Source of the DNA: a virus
DNA: 35,441 nt
Direction: 5' to 3' (one strand)
IMG/VR virus record: IMGVR_UViG_3300037493_000253
Span: 1-35,441 of that record
Shown: one piece after another, positions 11,955 to 35,441 of the stretch
Layout: the number at the start of each line of letters is the position of its first letter
Position numbering within the stretch: the stretch's first letter is position 1
The notes under the pieces: model-generated
Database searches by the model: none
What the model was told of the DNA's origin: nothing
The model's input: the letters and a program-made list of their open reading frames with translations, nothing else
Position numbers and translations under genes: made by a program

Positions 11955-12188
11955 TTACATACTGCTAACCATCGTGCAGATAGCCAACCCGTATCCTGCT
12001 GCTGTTCGCTCGGATTTCCCCCTATTGCAAACTACCGGCTTGCTGCGAATGCGCCACTGGCGACATGCAGTGGCGGACTTGTCCGCCGCAGGTAGTTTAC
12101 TATAGGGGAAATCCAGCAGCGGAAGATTTGTTTTTACCTCTTTTCCGCCACTGGTCCGCCACTGAAAAAACCCACTGGCGGACGTCAT
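11955..12188 (-). CDS. Doubtful small ORF overlapping the repeat cluster
   Basis: A 77-codon open frame whose ATG overlaps the stop of the primase-helicase gene as ATGA, like most junctions here. Against it, almost its whole length is made of inverted repeats and iterons, giving unnatural-looking peptides (QWRTSGG, RQWRIRS), and no family is recognised. I think the DNA repeats are the functional element and the frame is probably incidental. Confidence 0.25.
   Translation of the reverse strand: MTSASGFFQWRTSGGKEVKTNLPLLDFPYSKLPAADKSATACRQWRIRSKPVVCNRGKSERTAAGYGLAICTMVSSM
12012..12183. repeat. Iteron and palindrome cluster: candidate origin or operator array
   Basis: An 11-base element, GTCCGCCACTG, occurs exactly at 12154-12164 and with one mismatch immediately before it at 12143-12153. 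It occurs inverted and exact at 12068-12078, inverted with one mismatch at 12173-12183, and weaker at 12049-12059. Perfect dyads overlap these: CGCCACTG (12052-12059)/CAGTGGCG (12068-12075) and GGCGGAC (12072-12078)/GTCCGCC (12081-12087). The set is framed by a ~24-base imperfect inverted repeat, 12012-12036 against 12091-12114. It lies directly after the primase-helicase gene. P4-type replication proteins use such iterons at their origin. Confidence 0.6.
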
Positions 12189-14518
12189 ATTTGCTCACCC
12201 ACACGGCTGGTTGAACGTAGGCCCTTGCGGTCTTTGTATTGCCCGGTCGACCGATAAGTAAACTCTTCCAGCAACCCTGTTTCGAGCCAATGCTTGATGA
12301 TCCGCTTGGCTTGTGCATCGTTTTTGGTGTGCTTGGCATTGTCGAACGGGTAGTTCGTTATAACAGATCCCGCGAACCGTTCTTTGTCTTGCGGTCGGCT
12401 GCTATAATGTTCGACACCGTCGTCCGTTAATATGCCCGCGTTGATCAGGCTTAGTATTCTGTTGACGGTCTTTTCGTCCATGCCTTCCCATTCGTCGGGC
12501 AGGTTGAAGGGCACGCAGACGCCGACGTAATCACCGTTGGCTATCTTGACGCCAATCATCTTGCGGTAGACTGCCGCTGCCGCTGGTGGCGCTAGGTTGG
12601 CTTTGCCGTCGTCTATCCTGAATATTCCCCTAGCGTCGTCCAGCGGTATGCCGAGTTTGACCGCGTCGTCTTCGCTGATCTTGTTGATCACGCGGGCTGC
12701 TCGGACGGCCCCGATTAGGCTTCCAGCGCCGCGCACGCTGTCTATGCCCGCGTCTTCCCCGTTACCTTTGCGGATGTGGTGAACCAGACATATGCTGCAA
12801 TTGGCTTCGTCGGCCACACGTCTGATTTCGGCCACGACGGCGTTAACCGCACCGTTATCGTTTTCGTTGACGTTATGGGCGGCCACCAGCGGATCTATAA
12901 AAATCATGCCGATGTTCCATTCCTTGATCTTTCGGATCATGTATTCGACCAAGGCTACGTTCGGTATCACACCGTCGCGGGTTTGCGTGCCGAATTTTAA
13001 ACTGAAATCTCGGCCTGCGCTGACAAACAGTTTTCCTCTGATTTCGTCAGGTTTGACCTCGTAGTGCCTCATTGTGGCTAGGACACGTCTTTGGATTTCC
13101 TCGTATGGATCCTCTAAATTTATGATCCAGACGTTGCATTGCTCATGCACGGTTTCGCCCAGTAGCGGCCTGCCGATGGCTATGGCAACAGCTTCCGCCG
13201 TCAGTGCGCTTGTCTTGCCCACACCGCCGGCAGCGGCAAAGGCACTTAGGAATGATCTCAGATAATGATGGCCGTAAATCCACCGGCGGACGGGCACGCT
13301 GGCCTCGTCAAAATCGTCGAACGGCACGGGCCACTCGGCTGCCGGTGTCGGTGGCTCTGCGCTGCCCATAGGTATGTCGATGTAATCTTTTTCTGGCTGC
13401 GCGTCGGCAACGTGATCCGGTTGCGTCGGTTGAACGTAGTCGAAATCATCCAGCGGGGATTTAGGCACGTCGGACGGCGGCGATGCGGAGATTGTCGGCT
13501 TAATCTCCGCACCATAAGCACGCACGGCGGCCTTAAAGTCGCCACCATGTTCGAAATGTGCAAATAGGTCGAACGCGTCGCCGTAGCAGTATGAATTGTC
13601 GCCCATGGCTTTAGATCGGCCAATACCGGCGGCCGCATCTGAACCCGACAGGCTGACCCAATGCGTGCCGAAGTTTTGGGTGGCGAAACTGGCCGACGAT
13701 TGGTAACGCGATCTGTAATGGGCCGACGATCCGCGACGCTCGTAACCGTATTTCAGCAATAGGTCGCCGATGTCGTGGGCCTCGTTGAATACGTCGACCG
13801 GGTTTGCGTCGTTAGGATGCTGTAGGCGGCGTTCGGCTCGCTGCTGTTCGCGCTGGCGTCGGGCCACGTCTGCCTGCTCGTTGGCAAGTCTGCGCTGCTC
13901 TTCGCGGCGTTCGACTTCCTGCATGATAGGGTTGGCGTCGGTTAAGAATACGTTTCCCCCGCGAATTATTTCGTAATCGTAGAACAGCGGTTTTAGATCG
14001 GGTCCACGCTTTGACATAGGCACGTTGGGCAGATAGATCGGCTGGCCGCAGCGTGCCAATGCGCCGTCGGGGGTGATCCCGTGTTGCCTGATCATGTCAA
14101 AGAATGCCGACTGTATATCCTCGTATTCGATACCGGATATCTTGGCAGCCAGAGGCAACAGCACGCGCCACTTGCGTTTGTCTTGGCTTGCCCCCGACGA
14201 CGAGTAGACGATCATGCTGACAGGCCCTAGCACGTCTCTGACGGCCTGTATGACGTCGGCCTTGCTTGGGTTGCCTTGGTCGACGTCTAGGGCAAGCATG
14301 CGGAACAACCCGCGTTCGCGCTGGGCGTCGTGCGATCTGCCGTCGTTGGCTCGGTAGGTCGACGGTATGAAAAAGTCGGCGTCGGCTTTGTCTTTGGCTT
14401 GCGGCTCTTTGACCATCTTGACGATGTCGGGCCATGATATGCCGGGGTAAGTCTGGTCTGGCTTGTCGATCAGCGTGAAGTAACTGCCGGCGGCCATCAG
14501 GAAACGGATGTCACTCAT
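12185..14518 (-). CDS. Primase-helicase: N-terminal primase-like, C-terminal RepA-type ATPase
   Basis: A 777-residue replication protein. Residues ~1-190 look like an archaeo-eukaryotic-type primase/Rep domain: LALDVD gives a DVD metal motif at 78-80, followed by YSSSGASQDKRKWRVLLPL at ~105-123. A charged helical linker (residues ~200-235) leads to a region with GDAFDLFAHFEHGGDFKAAV (~313-332). The C-terminal RecA-fold helicase has Walker A AAAGGVGKTS at 428-437, Walker B MIFIDPL at 538-544 and LVHHIRK at 578-584, as in RepA/DnaB-like AAA_25 proteins. It would unwind and prime the phage origin, leaving synthesis to host polymerase III. The ATG lacks a strong ribosome site. Confidence 0.88.
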   Translation of the reverse strand: MSDIRFLMAAGSYFTLIDKPDQTYPGISWPDIVKMVKEPQAKDKADADFFIPSTYRANDGRSHDAQRERGLFRMLALDVDQGNPSKADVIQAVRDVLGPVSMIVYSSSGASQDKRKWRVLLPLAAKISGIEYEDIQSAFFDMIRQHGITPDGALARCGQPIYLPNVPMSKRGPDLKPLFYDYEIIRGGNVFLTDANPIMQEVERREEQRRLANEQADVARRQREQQRAERRLQHPNDANPVDVFNEAHDIGDLLLKYGYERRGSSAHYRSRYQSSASFATQNFGTHWVSLSGSDAAAGIGRSKAMGDNSYCYGDAFDLFAHFEHGGDFKAAVRAYGAEIKPTISASPPSDVPKSPLDDFDYVQPTQPDHVADAQPEKDYIDIPMGSAEPPTPAAEWPVPFDDFDEASVPVRRWIYGHHYLRSFLSAFAAAGGVGKTSALTAEAVAIAIGRPLLGETVHEQCNVWIINLEDPYEEIQRRVLATMRHYEVKPDEIRGKLFVSAGRDFSLKFGTQTRDGVIPNVALVEYMIRKIKEWNIGMIFIDPLVAAHNVNENDNGAVNAVVAEIRRVADEANCSICLVHHIRKGNGEDAGIDSVRGAGSLIGAVRAARVINKISEDDAVKLGIPLDDARGIFRIDDGKANLAPPAAAAVYRKMIGVKIANGDYVGVCVPFNLPDEWEGMDEKTVNRILSLINAGILTDDGVEHYSSRPQDKERFAGSVITNYPFDNAKHTKNDAQAKRIIKHWLETGLLEEFTYRSTGQYKDRKGLRSTSRVGEQI

Positions 14519-14532
14519 GGTTGCACAGAGTG

Positions 14533-14561
14533 TTGCATGGTGGGTGTGCGTAATGTATAAA
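14533..14561 (+). promoter_or_regulatory. Candidate promoter for a + strand small RNA
   Basis: TTGCAT at 14533-14538, 17 bases, TATAAA at 14556-14561. The -10 matches five of six consensus bases; the -35 keeps only the TTG. Predicted start is near 14568. It faces rightward in a region where all coding genes run leftward. Confidence 0.4.
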
Positions 14562-14567
14562 CATGGT

Positions 14568-14638
14568 GCGAGGCGTTCTCCCTGCGTTGCATAGTGCTTA
14601 GGCCCGGTTGGTTCCTCCCCCAGCCGGGCCTCTTTTTA
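14568..14638 (+). ncRNA. Candidate phage small RNA with anti-Shine-Dalgarno loop
   Basis: About 70 nucleotides between the promoter-like element (14533-14561) and the terminator T-run. No ORF of note lies within it (the best is 12 codons). Its 3' half is an 11-bp hairpin whose loop reads UUCCUCCC, complementary to GGGAGGAA-type ribosome sites. One perfect seven-base match (UUCCUCC to GGAGGAA) is the ribosome site of the gene at 16138-16386. CU-rich loops of this kind are known in alphaproteobacterial 'cuckoo' sRNAs. It is antisense to the leader of the primase gene, so a cis-antisense role is also possible. Transcription itself is inferred. Confidence 0.4.
14601..14637 (+). terminator. Intrinsic terminator, rightward
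   Basis: GGCCCGGTTGG (14601-14611) and CCAGCCGGGCC (14620-14630) form an 11-bp stem with one G-U pair and an 8-base loop, followed by TCTTTTT. The G-U pair exists only in the + strand RNA (the other strand has a C-A mismatch) and the T-run is on the + strand, so it acts rightward. No protein gene on the + strand precedes it. Confidence 0.65.
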
Positions 14639-14639
14639 C

Positions 14640-15308
14640 CTAAAATGGCAAATCGTCTGCCAAATCATCTCGAAGGTTCGGCTTTGCCTGCAACGGCGGC
14701 GATGCGTAAGCCACAGTTTCGAACGGGTCAACGTCCGGCTTCTTAACTTCAACCGTGTCGAAATCATCCATGCCGGCTGCGTCGCCGTATTTCGCCTCGG
14801 TGACTTGCACGGCGTCCAGTAGCAAGCTGATGCCGCCTTGGCCGTCTGGGTCGACCACAGCGACGGCCCACGCACGCACAGTGCCGACCGAACCACCCCA
14901 GAAATCCAACCGCGTCATGGCATTCTTTTCGCCGTCGATAACGGTCGGTGCCTCGTTTTTGTCGCCGTTCTTTTTCGTGCCGTTACGTTTGGCTGTGAAT
15001 TGCATCACGCCGGTCGGGTTGCCGTCTTTGTCTTTCAGACGTTTGGCCCCGAAGACCGTTTTAAATTCCGGCATCTTGGTGTTGCGTGTCCGGCACTCGG
15101 CGTAGTGCGCTTTCAGATCGGCATACAGCGCCTTGCCGTCGGCTTCCGGCATGTCGAACGCGACGGACCAAGCGGCATTGCTTGCCGTCGGTGCGCACGG
15201 CTCGCTGCGCTGTGTCTGCGTGTTAAAACGGTAGGTTCCGTTTAGCTTGGGGAATTGCAGTGTGACGTTTTTCGCCAGCACTTTTCGGAAGTCTGAATTG
15301 TCTGCCAT
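14640..15308 (-). CDS. Single-stranded DNA-binding protein (DUF2815-like)
   Basis: A 222-residue protein. An OB-fold-type core (VTLQFPKLNGTYRF ... MQFTAKRNGTKKN ... VRAWAVAVVDPDGQGGISLLLDAVQV) resembles the DUF2815 group of phage ssDNA-binding proteins. The last ~30 residues are acidic and end DDLADDLPF, closely like the DDDIPF tail with which bacterial SSB recruits partner enzymes. The ATG follows AAGGAG by 6 bases. It sits between the exonuclease and the primase-helicase, so it probably coats DNA in replication and recombination and may also act in annealing, since no separate recombinase gene is seen. Confidence 0.75.
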   Translation of the reverse strand: MADNSDFRKVLAKNVTLQFPKLNGTYRFNTQTQRSEPCAPTASNAAWSVAFDMPEADGKALYADLKAHYAECRTRNTKMPEFKTVFGAKRLKDKDGNPTGVMQFTAKRNGTKKNGDKNEAPTVIDGEKNAMTRLDFWGGSVGTVRAWAVAVVDPDGQGGISLLLDAVQVTEAKYGDAAGMDDFDTVEVKKPDVDPFETVAYASPPLQAKPNLRDDLADDLPF

Positions 15309-15331: not shown

Positions 15332-16138
15332 TTAGAAATCTGTAAAGACGTCTTCTTCGGGTTGTTCAAACTGCCAGCGGGGCAGGTCGATCACGTTACA
15401 CAGGGGCCAGCCCGTTTGATAGTCGTTTCCGGCCTCGGCGTTCGCAATTTTGTGCAGGGTTTCCGTCACCTTCAAATCGGCGGCGGCAAGGTAGTCGTCG
15501 GTCAGCGTGTGGACGCATACCGCGTGCGGTGCTTCCTTCTCGACGCATATGAAGTAAAACTCCATGCCATCGCCGCCGGTATGTAGACGCATTACCCTGC
15601 GGTAGAATGCGGCTTGCAGATCGTAACCGTATTTGCGCACGTCACGGGGGAAGTTTGCCGGGCTGGCATCCTGCGTCGTCTTGATGTCAAACAGCATGCC
15701 GATGCTTGGGATGAAACCATCCGGCCGGCATTTAAGTTTGACGCCTGTCTGCGGATCGTCGGCGAAGAAGCTGCCCTCGGCGATCATGTCTTTGTAATCG
15801 AAGAATGCATTGGCGGCCGGATGGTTAATCACGGCGGCTGACATAGCCTGTGCCAAATCAAAGTCGGCCTCGGTCAGCAACAGCTTGCCGTCGATGTCTG
15901 CGGCCAGCTTAAGTTCTTTCCACTTGTTGCCCCGGCGATCTTCTGGCCCACGGACGACGAGATCCTTTTCCGGCTCAAGCAGCATGGCGTGAACGGCAGT
16001 TCCCAGATCGAACGCCACGCTGGATTTGTAGACTTTGTTTTTCCAATGCAGCAGGGATTTCAGGGCAACGGCTTTGACATCGCTGCTGCTGATCTCTGGC
16101 CGGGCGTGATAGGCTTCGTTGGTTAGGTCAAGTTGCAT
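15332..16138 (-). CDS. RecE-like PD-(D/E)XK exonuclease (DUF3799)
   Basis: A 268-residue nuclease resembling the C-terminal domain of RecE. It opens MQLDLTNEAYHARPEISSSD, a classic RecE/DUF3799 start. LGTAVHAMLLEP holds the conserved His50. EGSFF gives Glu121, KCRPDGF gives Asp140, and FDIKTT gives Asp151/Lys153 of the PD-(D/E)XK core. YDLQAAFYRRVM is the conserved C-terminal helix. It would resect double-strand ends to give 3' overhangs bound by the SSB encoded just downstream. The start at 16136-16138 overlaps the upstream stop as TGATG and follows GGGGAA; the longer frame is discarded. Confidence 0.85.
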   Translation of the reverse strand: MQLDLTNEAYHARPEISSSDVKAVALKSLLHWKNKVYKSSVAFDLGTAVHAMLLEPEKDLVVRGPEDRRGNKWKELKLAADIDGKLLLTEADFDLAQAMSAAVINHPAANAFFDYKDMIAEGSFFADDPQTGVKLKCRPDGFIPSIGMLFDIKTTQDASPANFPRDVRKYGYDLQAAFYRRVMRLHTGGDGMEFYFICVEKEAPHAVCVHTLTDDYLAAADLKVTETLHKIANAEAGNDYQTGWPLCNVIDLPRWQFEQPEEDVFTDF

Positions 16139-16386: not shown

Positions 16387-16826
16387 TTTTTCCTCCACCC
16401 AAAATACGCGATCAATGCACTTTCCGCTCTTCCGTCGTCTTTCACCCTAGCCCACTGATCGGCGGCATCCGGGAAATACTGGCTTGCCAACGCTCGGCTG
16501 GCATTCTTGTCTGTCGACAGGTGCATGGATTTCTTCCACGCGCTTGGGTCAACCTCGAACGTCGGTATGCCGGCATAAAACAGGCAAGCTTTCAGTTCGC
16601 CGTATGCCACCGCGATGGTGACGGCGTTCTTGATGCCAATCATGCGCGGGAAAAATGGACGTTCCAGCCATGCACACTTTACGACACCGATGTCGCTTAT
16701 AAGCTGCCTCTTACCGTCGATGGTTCCCGGCATGTCAAAGGTTTTGACCGACAGCGTGCCTTCGTAGTCGTCCATGACCGCGAAGGCTCCCTGTTTACCG
16801 GGGTCAATACCGATGAGGCGGGTCAT
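16383..16826 (-). CDS. RuvC-like Holliday junction resolvase
   Basis: A 147-residue RNase H-fold nuclease. IGIDPGKQGAFAV gives Asp8, WLERPF gives Glu55, and DDGRAESALIAYFGW gives the C-terminal acidic pair (Asp130/131, Glu135) of the RuvC active site. FEVDPSAWKKSM matches the conserved V-x-P-S-x-W-K motif. It would cut four-way junctions and branched replication products before packaging. The ATG overlaps the upstream stop by four bases, which decides against the longer frame. Confidence 0.88.
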   Translation of the reverse strand: MTRLIGIDPGKQGAFAVMDDYEGTLSVKTFDMPGTIDGKRQLISDIGVVKCAWLERPFFPRMIGIKNAVTIAVAYGELKACLFYAGIPTFEVDPSAWKKSMHLSTDKNASRALASQYFPDAADQWARVKDDGRAESALIAYFGWRKK

Positions 16827-20427: not shown

Positions 20428-20838
20428 ATGGCCGACGATAAGCAAAGAGAAATCTGGCGGTCGGCAAGAAGGCGATACGTTGCCAAAAACCGAGAAAAGG
20501 TTCGGGCAAGTAATCGCGCATCAAAACAAAAGAAACATCTGGCGGACCCGTCTTGGCGCGAGGAAACAAATTTCCGCAAACGCGCCAAGGGGTCAGGCTT
20601 CACAAAGGATCAATGGGGAATAATGTTTGATGAGCAGGGGCGTGTCTGCGCTATTTGTAAAACCGACAATCCGGGCAACCCCAAAGGCTGGCAACTAGAT
20701 CACTGTCACAAGACGAAGGTTGTCCGCTTCATCCTATGCACACACTGCAACCGGGGTCTGGGCGGTTTCAAAGACAACCCAGACCTGTTGCGCATGGCGG
20801 CAGATATGCTTGAAAAGTTTAACCGCAGCCAAACTTAG
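20428..20838 (+). CDS. Endonuclease VII-type (recombination) nuclease
   Basis: A 136-residue protein with the HNH/zinc fold of T4 endonuclease VII. The N-terminal ~55 residues are very basic. CAIC (C74, C77), LDHCH (D91, H92, H94) and ILCTHCNRGLGGFKDN (C104, C107, N108) give the four zinc cysteines and the catalytic His/Asn. T4 endonuclease VII resolves branched DNA and trims heads before packaging. GGAG lies 5 bases upstream of the ATG. It is the last rightward gene; its stop overlaps the stop of the leftward unit. Confidence 0.9.
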   Translation: MADDKQREIWRSARRRYVAKNREKVRASNRASKQKKHLADPSWREETNFRKRAKGSGFTKDQWGIMFDEQGRVCAICKTDNPGNPKGWQLDHCHKTKVVRFILCTHCNRGLGGFKDNPDLLRMAADMLEKFNRSQT

Positions 20839-34648: not shown

Positions 34649-35350
34649 TTATGCTTTCATAATGTAAGCCAGAGCATAATACGGCGGCAAGTTTTCGTGT
34701 GAAGTGCCGGAACCAATTGACGATGTTGTCCCGCTGATAGTGTGCGTGTGGCTACCGGAACTGGCAGTGCTGCCAATGTTATCTAGGCTAAATAAGGACG
34801 AGTTCCCCACCCCGCGATCAGTATCACTTGATTGAACTGGAACCCCACCGTGTGTGTGTGCGCCGTCCGTAGATGTCGTGCCGCTAAACGTATGCGTGTG
34901 TGCAGGTGTTTGTGCCACAGTCAAAGTAACGGTAGCCGCGCCGCCGGTTGCTGCAACTGCATAGGTCGTGCCAGCGCCTACGATAAAACGATCACGCAGG
35001 TCTGGCGTTCCGTTAGCCCCGTTGCAAAGATACCAACTTGCTGGAATTGATGCGATAGACCCAGACCACATAATAATGCCGCCTGTTGGCATCAGGCGAG
35101 TGTTAAGGTCACTTGTGCTTGCAGTGACACCATCTAAGATATTCAATTCGGCGGCCGACGATGTTACCGCCGTGCCATCAATTTTCCACAGGCCACCCGA
35201 CAAATTGGGCTTGGCTTTCTGCGCACCCGTGCCACCGAGCAGGGCGTCAACCGCATCCAGATCCGTATTGATCTTGGTTCCCCAAGTGTCGCCAGATGCG
35301 CCAACTTCCGGTTTGGTTAAGGCGAAATTGGTGGTTGTTGTATCTGCCAT
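34649..35350 (-). CDS. Tail-collar fibre, receptor-binding candidate
   Basis: A 233-residue fibre. The N-terminus ([20 protein letters not shown] then [15 protein letters not shown]) attaches to the tail. [20 protein letters not shown] then [20 protein letters not shown] is the tail-collar domain. The C-terminal ~80 residues carry HTHTFSG, GAHTHGG and [10 protein letters not shown]: paired His motifs that in T4 gp37-like tips coordinate iron along a trimeric needle. It ends [14 protein letters not shown], the usual tip ending. The second fibre beside the S74 fibre is a likely host-range determinant. Confidence 0.88.
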
Positions 35351-35441
35351 CTATCTTGCCCTTATGCGGCCCAAGTTGCCGGGGCAACTGTCTGGGGTGT
35401 CCATGTCTCATTGTGTGCGGCCTGCGGCGTCCATGTCTCAC
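35282..35441. repeat. Right copy of 160-bp terminal direct repeat
   Basis: Matches 1-160 except G at 35315 versus A at 34. Running off the end, the copy contains the tail-collar start (to 35350) and the C-terminal end of the repeat-rich gene (35362-35441). Confidence 0.95.
35362..35441 (-). CDS. Duplicate 3' end of repeat-rich gene (partial)
   Basis: The last 25 or so codons, with stop at 35362-35364, of the gene complete at 81-605. The TWTPQ units are in this part. It is present only because of the terminal overlap. Confidence 0.9.
   Translation of the reverse strand, partial: ETWTPQAAHNETWTPQTVAPATWAA

Follow-up and report, generated by a model that had tools for sequence, protein, structure and literature searches.

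The junction between two replication genes of a phage, those for a single-stranded DNA-binding protein (ssb) and a primase-helicase, carries on the opposite strand a predicted antisense RNA with its own promoter and terminator, both of them predicted and both conserved. We consider it probable from the sequence evidence that this RNA acts in cis, masking the ribosome site of a short leader ORF and so lowering the coupled translation of the primase-helicase. In plasmids, antisense RNA acting on a coupled leader ORF is a textbook means of control; our search of open-licence papers found no antisense RNA on the leader of a phage replication primase, and the paper describing the roseophage family does not mention antisense RNA. 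If the proposal is true, a phage lineage with cultured roseophages and dozens of members known from metagenomes uses RNA to limit its own replication protein. The design would be an overlapping one, in which codons of the leader ORF double as the antisense promoter, and it is open to testing by synonymous changes.

Anatomy of the ssb–primase-helicase junction

The window, by which we mean the whole stretch of DNA analysed, is a viral contig, 35,441 bases long. Its nearest relatives among annotated phages are cultured roseobacter phages, in which gene order is identical. About 160 terminal bases are common to its two ends (1-160 and 35282-35441), with 40-mers at 61 and 101 recurring at 35342 and 35382; identity is not exact throughout, and the shared sequences suggest a near-complete genome that is either circularly permuted or terminally redundant. 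The ssb and primase-helicase genes, which flank the antisense element, both run leftward (Table 1). The sole rightward gene block of the window (about 17.4-20.8 kb) ends with an Endonuclease VII-like gene (phrog_2914) at 20428-20838.

Table 1. Features of the junction and its flanking genes (window positions)
Feature	Position	Strand	Details
Gp2.5-like ssDNA-binding protein gene (ssb)	14640..15308	-	upstream of primase-helicase; phrog_112, E 1.3e-10
5' hairpin H1	14566..14592	+	loop UUCUCCC (14576-14582); fold prediction
Intrinsic terminator H2	14600..14637	+	hairpin 14600-14631; loop UUCCUCCC (14612-14619); tail TCTTTTT
Predicted antisense RNA, ~73 nt	14565..14637	+	start inferred ~4-7 nt past the -10 box; end at the T tract
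Antisense promoter TTGCAT-17-TATAAA	14533..14561	+	TTGCAT 14533-14538, TATAAA 14556-14561; from sequence and relatives
Shine-Dalgarno GGGAGAA of leader ORF	14576..14582	-	complementary to the H1 loop
Leader ORF, 17 codons	14511..14564	-	MFIHYAHPPCNTLCNHE, then stop TGA inside primase codons 2-3
Primase-helicase gene, probable antisense target	12185..14518	-	Pfam AAA_25 1.6e-37; PHROGs DNA polymerase/primase and primase/helicase

An earlier note on this DNA had described a promoter-like TTGCAT-17-TATAAA pair, a gap of about 70 bases and a rightward terminator, all of which are present exactly as described (14533-14638). Its statement that the region holds no ORF is correct for the + strand but not for the opposite strand, on which the leader ORF lies; neither this ORF nor hairpin H1 figured in the note.

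The + strand between 14565 and 14638 folds as two hairpins, H1 and the terminator H2, at -35.8 kcal/mol versus -23.0 kcal/mol for shuffled sequences (z = -4.5); the fold of the minus strand of the element is unremarkable against shuffles (z = -1.5). The H2 stem consists of 12 pairs, one of them G-U, and a strict terminator scan returned it as the single strong terminator on both strands of the 35-kb window. The predicted RNA ends a few nucleotides from the ssb stop codon and does not overlap the ssb coding sequence. It is complementary to the leader throughout, from the terminator up to a point shortly before the start codon of the leader ORF, Shine-Dalgarno included. If transcribed, the RNA would lie entirely opposite the ssb-primase leader, in extended perfect complementarity with it, and the leader ORF begins where the RNA would start.

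Conservation of the terminator and the antisense promoter

Relatives were drawn from IMG/VR scans with ssb, the ssb alignment and the primase N-terminus. Counting that of the window, 65 distinct complete ssb/primase junctions resulted, to which four from cultured CRP phages were added, 69 in all. In every one of the 65 non-CRP junctions, an antisense GC-rich hairpin followed by a T-rich tail is located just past the upstream stop codon. A script detected at least four T among the eight bases behind the hairpin in 68 of the 69 junctions in the antisense direction and in none of the 69 in the sense direction; in the single miss, L045 (CRP-811), the script picked the wrong hairpin, and the true one is followed by TTTTTT. 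The strong-terminator criterion identified all 64 non-CRP locus junctions tested, versus four sites elsewhere in 461 kb. Stems of the four CRP phages are shorter and fall short of this criterion, but their tails are T-rich. An antisense terminator is found at the junction in four cultured roseophages, with ssb identity down to about 30%.

The H2 stems vary with compensation (GGCCCGGTTGG, GGCCCGGTAGG, GGCCTAGCTGG, GAACCCCGGC, AAGCCCGGC and GGCCCCGGCCGCG, among others). Covariation is generally blind to strand, because the hairpins are common to both strands, and the polarity of H2 favours neither of them (G-U and A-C counts are even, 4 versus 5). RNAalifold run on a plain MAFFT alignment recovered H2 in part only, with H1 misaligned.

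In L003/L005 an extra ORF is inserted between ssb and the element, which remains beside the primase gene. As read from its translation, the interposed ORF (L005:5455-5883) is HNH endonuclease-like, and homology to the window resumes at the terminator tail. In L035 an additional GC-rich hairpin (L035:4233-4330) separates the stop codon of ssb from the antisense terminator. No such element was seen by eye next to primase-helicases that have another type of N-terminus (L008-L019, L038-L041), and therefore it appears to belong to the primase-helicase subfamily of the window. Matches to the 5'-motif DNA pattern in L021, L025 and L027 were discarded, as they look like chance occurrences and come with no terminator.

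Taken by itself, the promoter of the window is weak: with 8 of 12 consensus matches, it is under the cut-off of the promoter scan, and it is not significant against shuffles (p ~0.08). What makes it convincing is solely its conservation among the sequences compared. The best-scoring antisense promoter consists of TTG, exactly 17 nt and TA at the corresponding place in 65 of 65 non-CRP junctions; in the CRP phages the antisense promoter is uncertain. All 39 relatives with a 17-codon leader display the pattern TTGN3-N17-TAN4, placed at two offsets three bases (one codon) apart, one case deviating by a single base. None of the 65 non-CRP junctions has lost the promoter or the terminator stem. The promoter geometry, the non-coding body and the terminator in 65 of 65 junctions support well the earlier proposal of a phage-encoded small RNA.

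Codon choice in the leader ORF points in the same direction. Where an isoleucine codon overlaps the antisense -10 box it is ATA (31 of 31 cases); at other positions in the same leaders, which serve as an internal control, it is either ATC or ATT (27 of 27; Fisher p = 4e-17, a value that overstates independence as the sequences are related). ATA makes up 0-15% of isoleucine codons in sampled phage genes, and the bias opposite the -10 box agrees across several divergent clades. The simplest reading of these sequences is that the antisense -10 element is under selection.

The leader ORF and a model for antisense control

We identified 27 distinct homologous leader ORFs, all of 17 codons, with zero internal stops and with a stop overlapping the primase gene; the other two frames are open in just 12 and 19 of them. 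The overlap between leader stop and primase start extends across the non-CRP junctions (L082 and L123 were judged by eye). In a separate clade, that of L066, L089 and their relatives, the leader ORF is 15 codons long and apparently follows a second tiny ORF; these chained ORFs are joined by a TAATG overlap, with a ATGTCTGA overlap with the primase gene following. In the same clade, the antisense loop CUCCUCCC resembles the alphaproteobacterial anti-Shine-Dalgarno small-RNA motif CCUCCUCCC.

Within 20 nt before its ATG, the primase-helicase of the window clade has no Shine-Dalgarno of its own. The leader Shine-Dalgarno sits among relatives in the loop of an mRNA-strand hairpin, the stem of which covaries in most of them (GGAAC/GTTCC, GTAAC/GTTAC, AGAAC/GTTCT, GGAAG/CTTCC, GGAC/GTCC). 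In the window clade, H1 is stable mainly as antisense RNA, by virtue of G-U pairs, and its strand polarity favours the antisense. A functional leader peptide was considered and rejected: the conserved residues (I at codon 3/4, K12 and the last) coincide with the antisense -10 box, the -35 box and the primase start, and their conservation is therefore better explained by constraint on the DNA.

In the model that we favour, the + strand would yield a short terminator-ended RNA (~14565-14637) able to pair over its full length with the leader that lies between the ssb and primase cistrons in the leftward mRNA. The primase-helicase is probably translated by coupling, as ribosomes finish the leader ORF at the overlapping stop. 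A first loop-loop contact would be followed by formation of a duplex that masks the leader ribosome site and might also open the mRNA to attack by RNase III. With ribosome entry at the leader ORF blocked, coupled translation of the primase-helicase would go down. As each copy of the genome would give rise to this RNA, it may act as a dosage-sensing brake as RNA and copies accumulate. Antisense action on the primase leader had been the last alternative listed in the earlier note, and it is the one to which the sequence comparisons lend most weight.

The phage element is similar to CopA/CopT-tap-repA of plasmid R1, RNAI/repB-repA and inc/repZ (IncB, IncI, IncL/M, IncK), all of them short antisense stem-loop RNAs on the leader of a replication gene. 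Translation of the tap/repB leader peptide is coupled to that of the replication protein. In plasmid antisense control the short stem-loop RNA and the replication-gene leader make initial contact through their loops (PMC10724649). The CopA/RNAI type targets a replication-gene leader with an overlapping leader ORF, an arrangement present in the phage, where we infer the coupling. The likeness is in logic, and no sequence homology is claimed. Unlike the plasmid systems, the phage element would act on a primase-helicase inside a long operon, its leader Shine-Dalgarno itself is within the antisense-covered loop, and no pseudoknot was identified.

A near parallel is asRNA1/ssr7036 of the Synechocystis plasmid pSYSA, an abundant cis-antisense RNA over a small ORF beside the primase-helicase replication gene for CyRepA1; it differs in belonging to a cyanobacterial plasmid and in being RNase E cleavage-dependent, and was likened by its authors to ColE1 (PMC9978351). 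ArrA of Bacillus subtilis, like the phage element, is antisense to the 5' leader of a replication gene. It lowers dnaA expression but is chromosomal, and the abstract on it describes no leader ORF coupling (PMC12112137).

Alternative readings

A different role proposed in the earlier note is that of a trans-acting small RNA, similar to NfeR1/alpha-r14, with C/U-rich loops that bind the ribosome sites of further phage genes or of host genes. Both loops, UUCUCCC and UUCCUCCC, are indeed complementary to Shine-Dalgarno sequences, and in the window clade the core of the H2 loop is invariant although the H2 stem varies. Perfect matches to parts of the loops occur at Shine-Dalgarno sites at 16396, 9394 and 4242. 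The GGAGGAA match reported at the gene ending at 16138 exists, and minus-strand copies of this motif are found just at 14618 and 16396. However, CCUCC is retained in the H2 loop in the window clade, L029/L030, L034/L035 and L049, and in most other relatives it gives way to UUGGUCU, UUGCUCG, CGGCUCU, UAUCUCC or UUUCUCCC, while terminator and promoter stay. UUGG loops, considered as possible YUNR U-turn recognition loops, are present in many relatives and absent from the window. H1 occurs in 27 distinct versions, with varying stems and with CUCC or CCUC in the loop of 25; here the anti-Shine-Dalgarno character is forced, because the ribosome site of the leader ORF lies opposite. Moreover, predicted pairing gives -171 kcal/mol for the cis duplex versus about -25 to -36 kcal/mol at other phage sites.

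The resemblance to alpha-r14/NfeR1 (RF02344) consists in hairpins with C/U-rich anti-Shine-Dalgarno loops. RNAs of that family have three hairpins with identical CCUCCUCCC and act in trans (PMC10746234). The ar14 model was the best sub-threshold Rfam match, at 25 bits, which is far under the gathering threshold of 58.8; at gathering threshold nothing matched in the window or in 17 relatives. We rejected membership in the family on this score and on the structure of the element, which has two hairpins and no CCUCCUCCC anywhere in the window.

As a conserved function, trans action finds no support, with CCUCC replaced in most relatives and the H1 loop being the complement of the leader Shine-Dalgarno, and as the main role of the RNA we regard it as unlikely. 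For the most part the loops appear to reflect complementarity to the leader of the phage itself, and trans action is possible but not needed. A broader scheme, in which the lineage has plasmid-type antisense control of replication, leader codons double as the antisense promoter and the anti-Shine-Dalgarno loops of the window clade additionally act in trans to repress further genes of the phage or the host, is speculative, and we give it a modest chance. More generally, an anti-Shine-Dalgarno loop in a small RNA can be a mere shadow of the ribosome site on the opposite strand.

Lambda OOP RNA, made from pO, is likewise a short terminated antisense RNA at the junction before a phage replication gene, and its length, 77 nt, is similar to that predicted here. 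OOP targets cII mRNA through RNase III, leaving the stability of O-P mRNA unaffected, and the promoter pO itself has a modulating effect on pR transcription (PMC3985674). In the same manner, the effect of the phage unit could fall on the 3' end of ssb mRNA, or on transcription through promoter interference, and not on primase translation. Its position and size are like those of OOP before gene O, and the RNA ends within a few nucleotides of the ssb stop. On the other hand, OOP is antisense to the coding mRNA of the upstream gene and has no leader ORF coupling, whereas the predicted phage RNA covers the leader Shine-Dalgarno and stops beyond the ssb stop codon. Moreover, the inserted ORF in L003/L005 parts the element from ssb and leaves it with the primase gene. 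We find an effect of this kind improbable.

It could also be argued that only the mRNA strand matters, as a leader with a processing or stability hairpin and the leader ORF, with the terminator and promoter on the antisense side as mere by-products. The mRNA strand does carry a conserved leader ORF and a Shine-Dalgarno hairpin, but the antisense bias of the T-rich tail (68 versus 0 of 69), the fixed -35/-10 geometry and the ATA bias opposite the -10 box make this very improbable. Finally, a role in phage replication as an RNA primer or as a transcript that activates the origin, which the location at the start of a replication gene might bring to mind and which was once proposed for OOP, is hardly credible, no origin features having come to light here and OOP having been shown to be unnecessary as a primer (PMC3985674).
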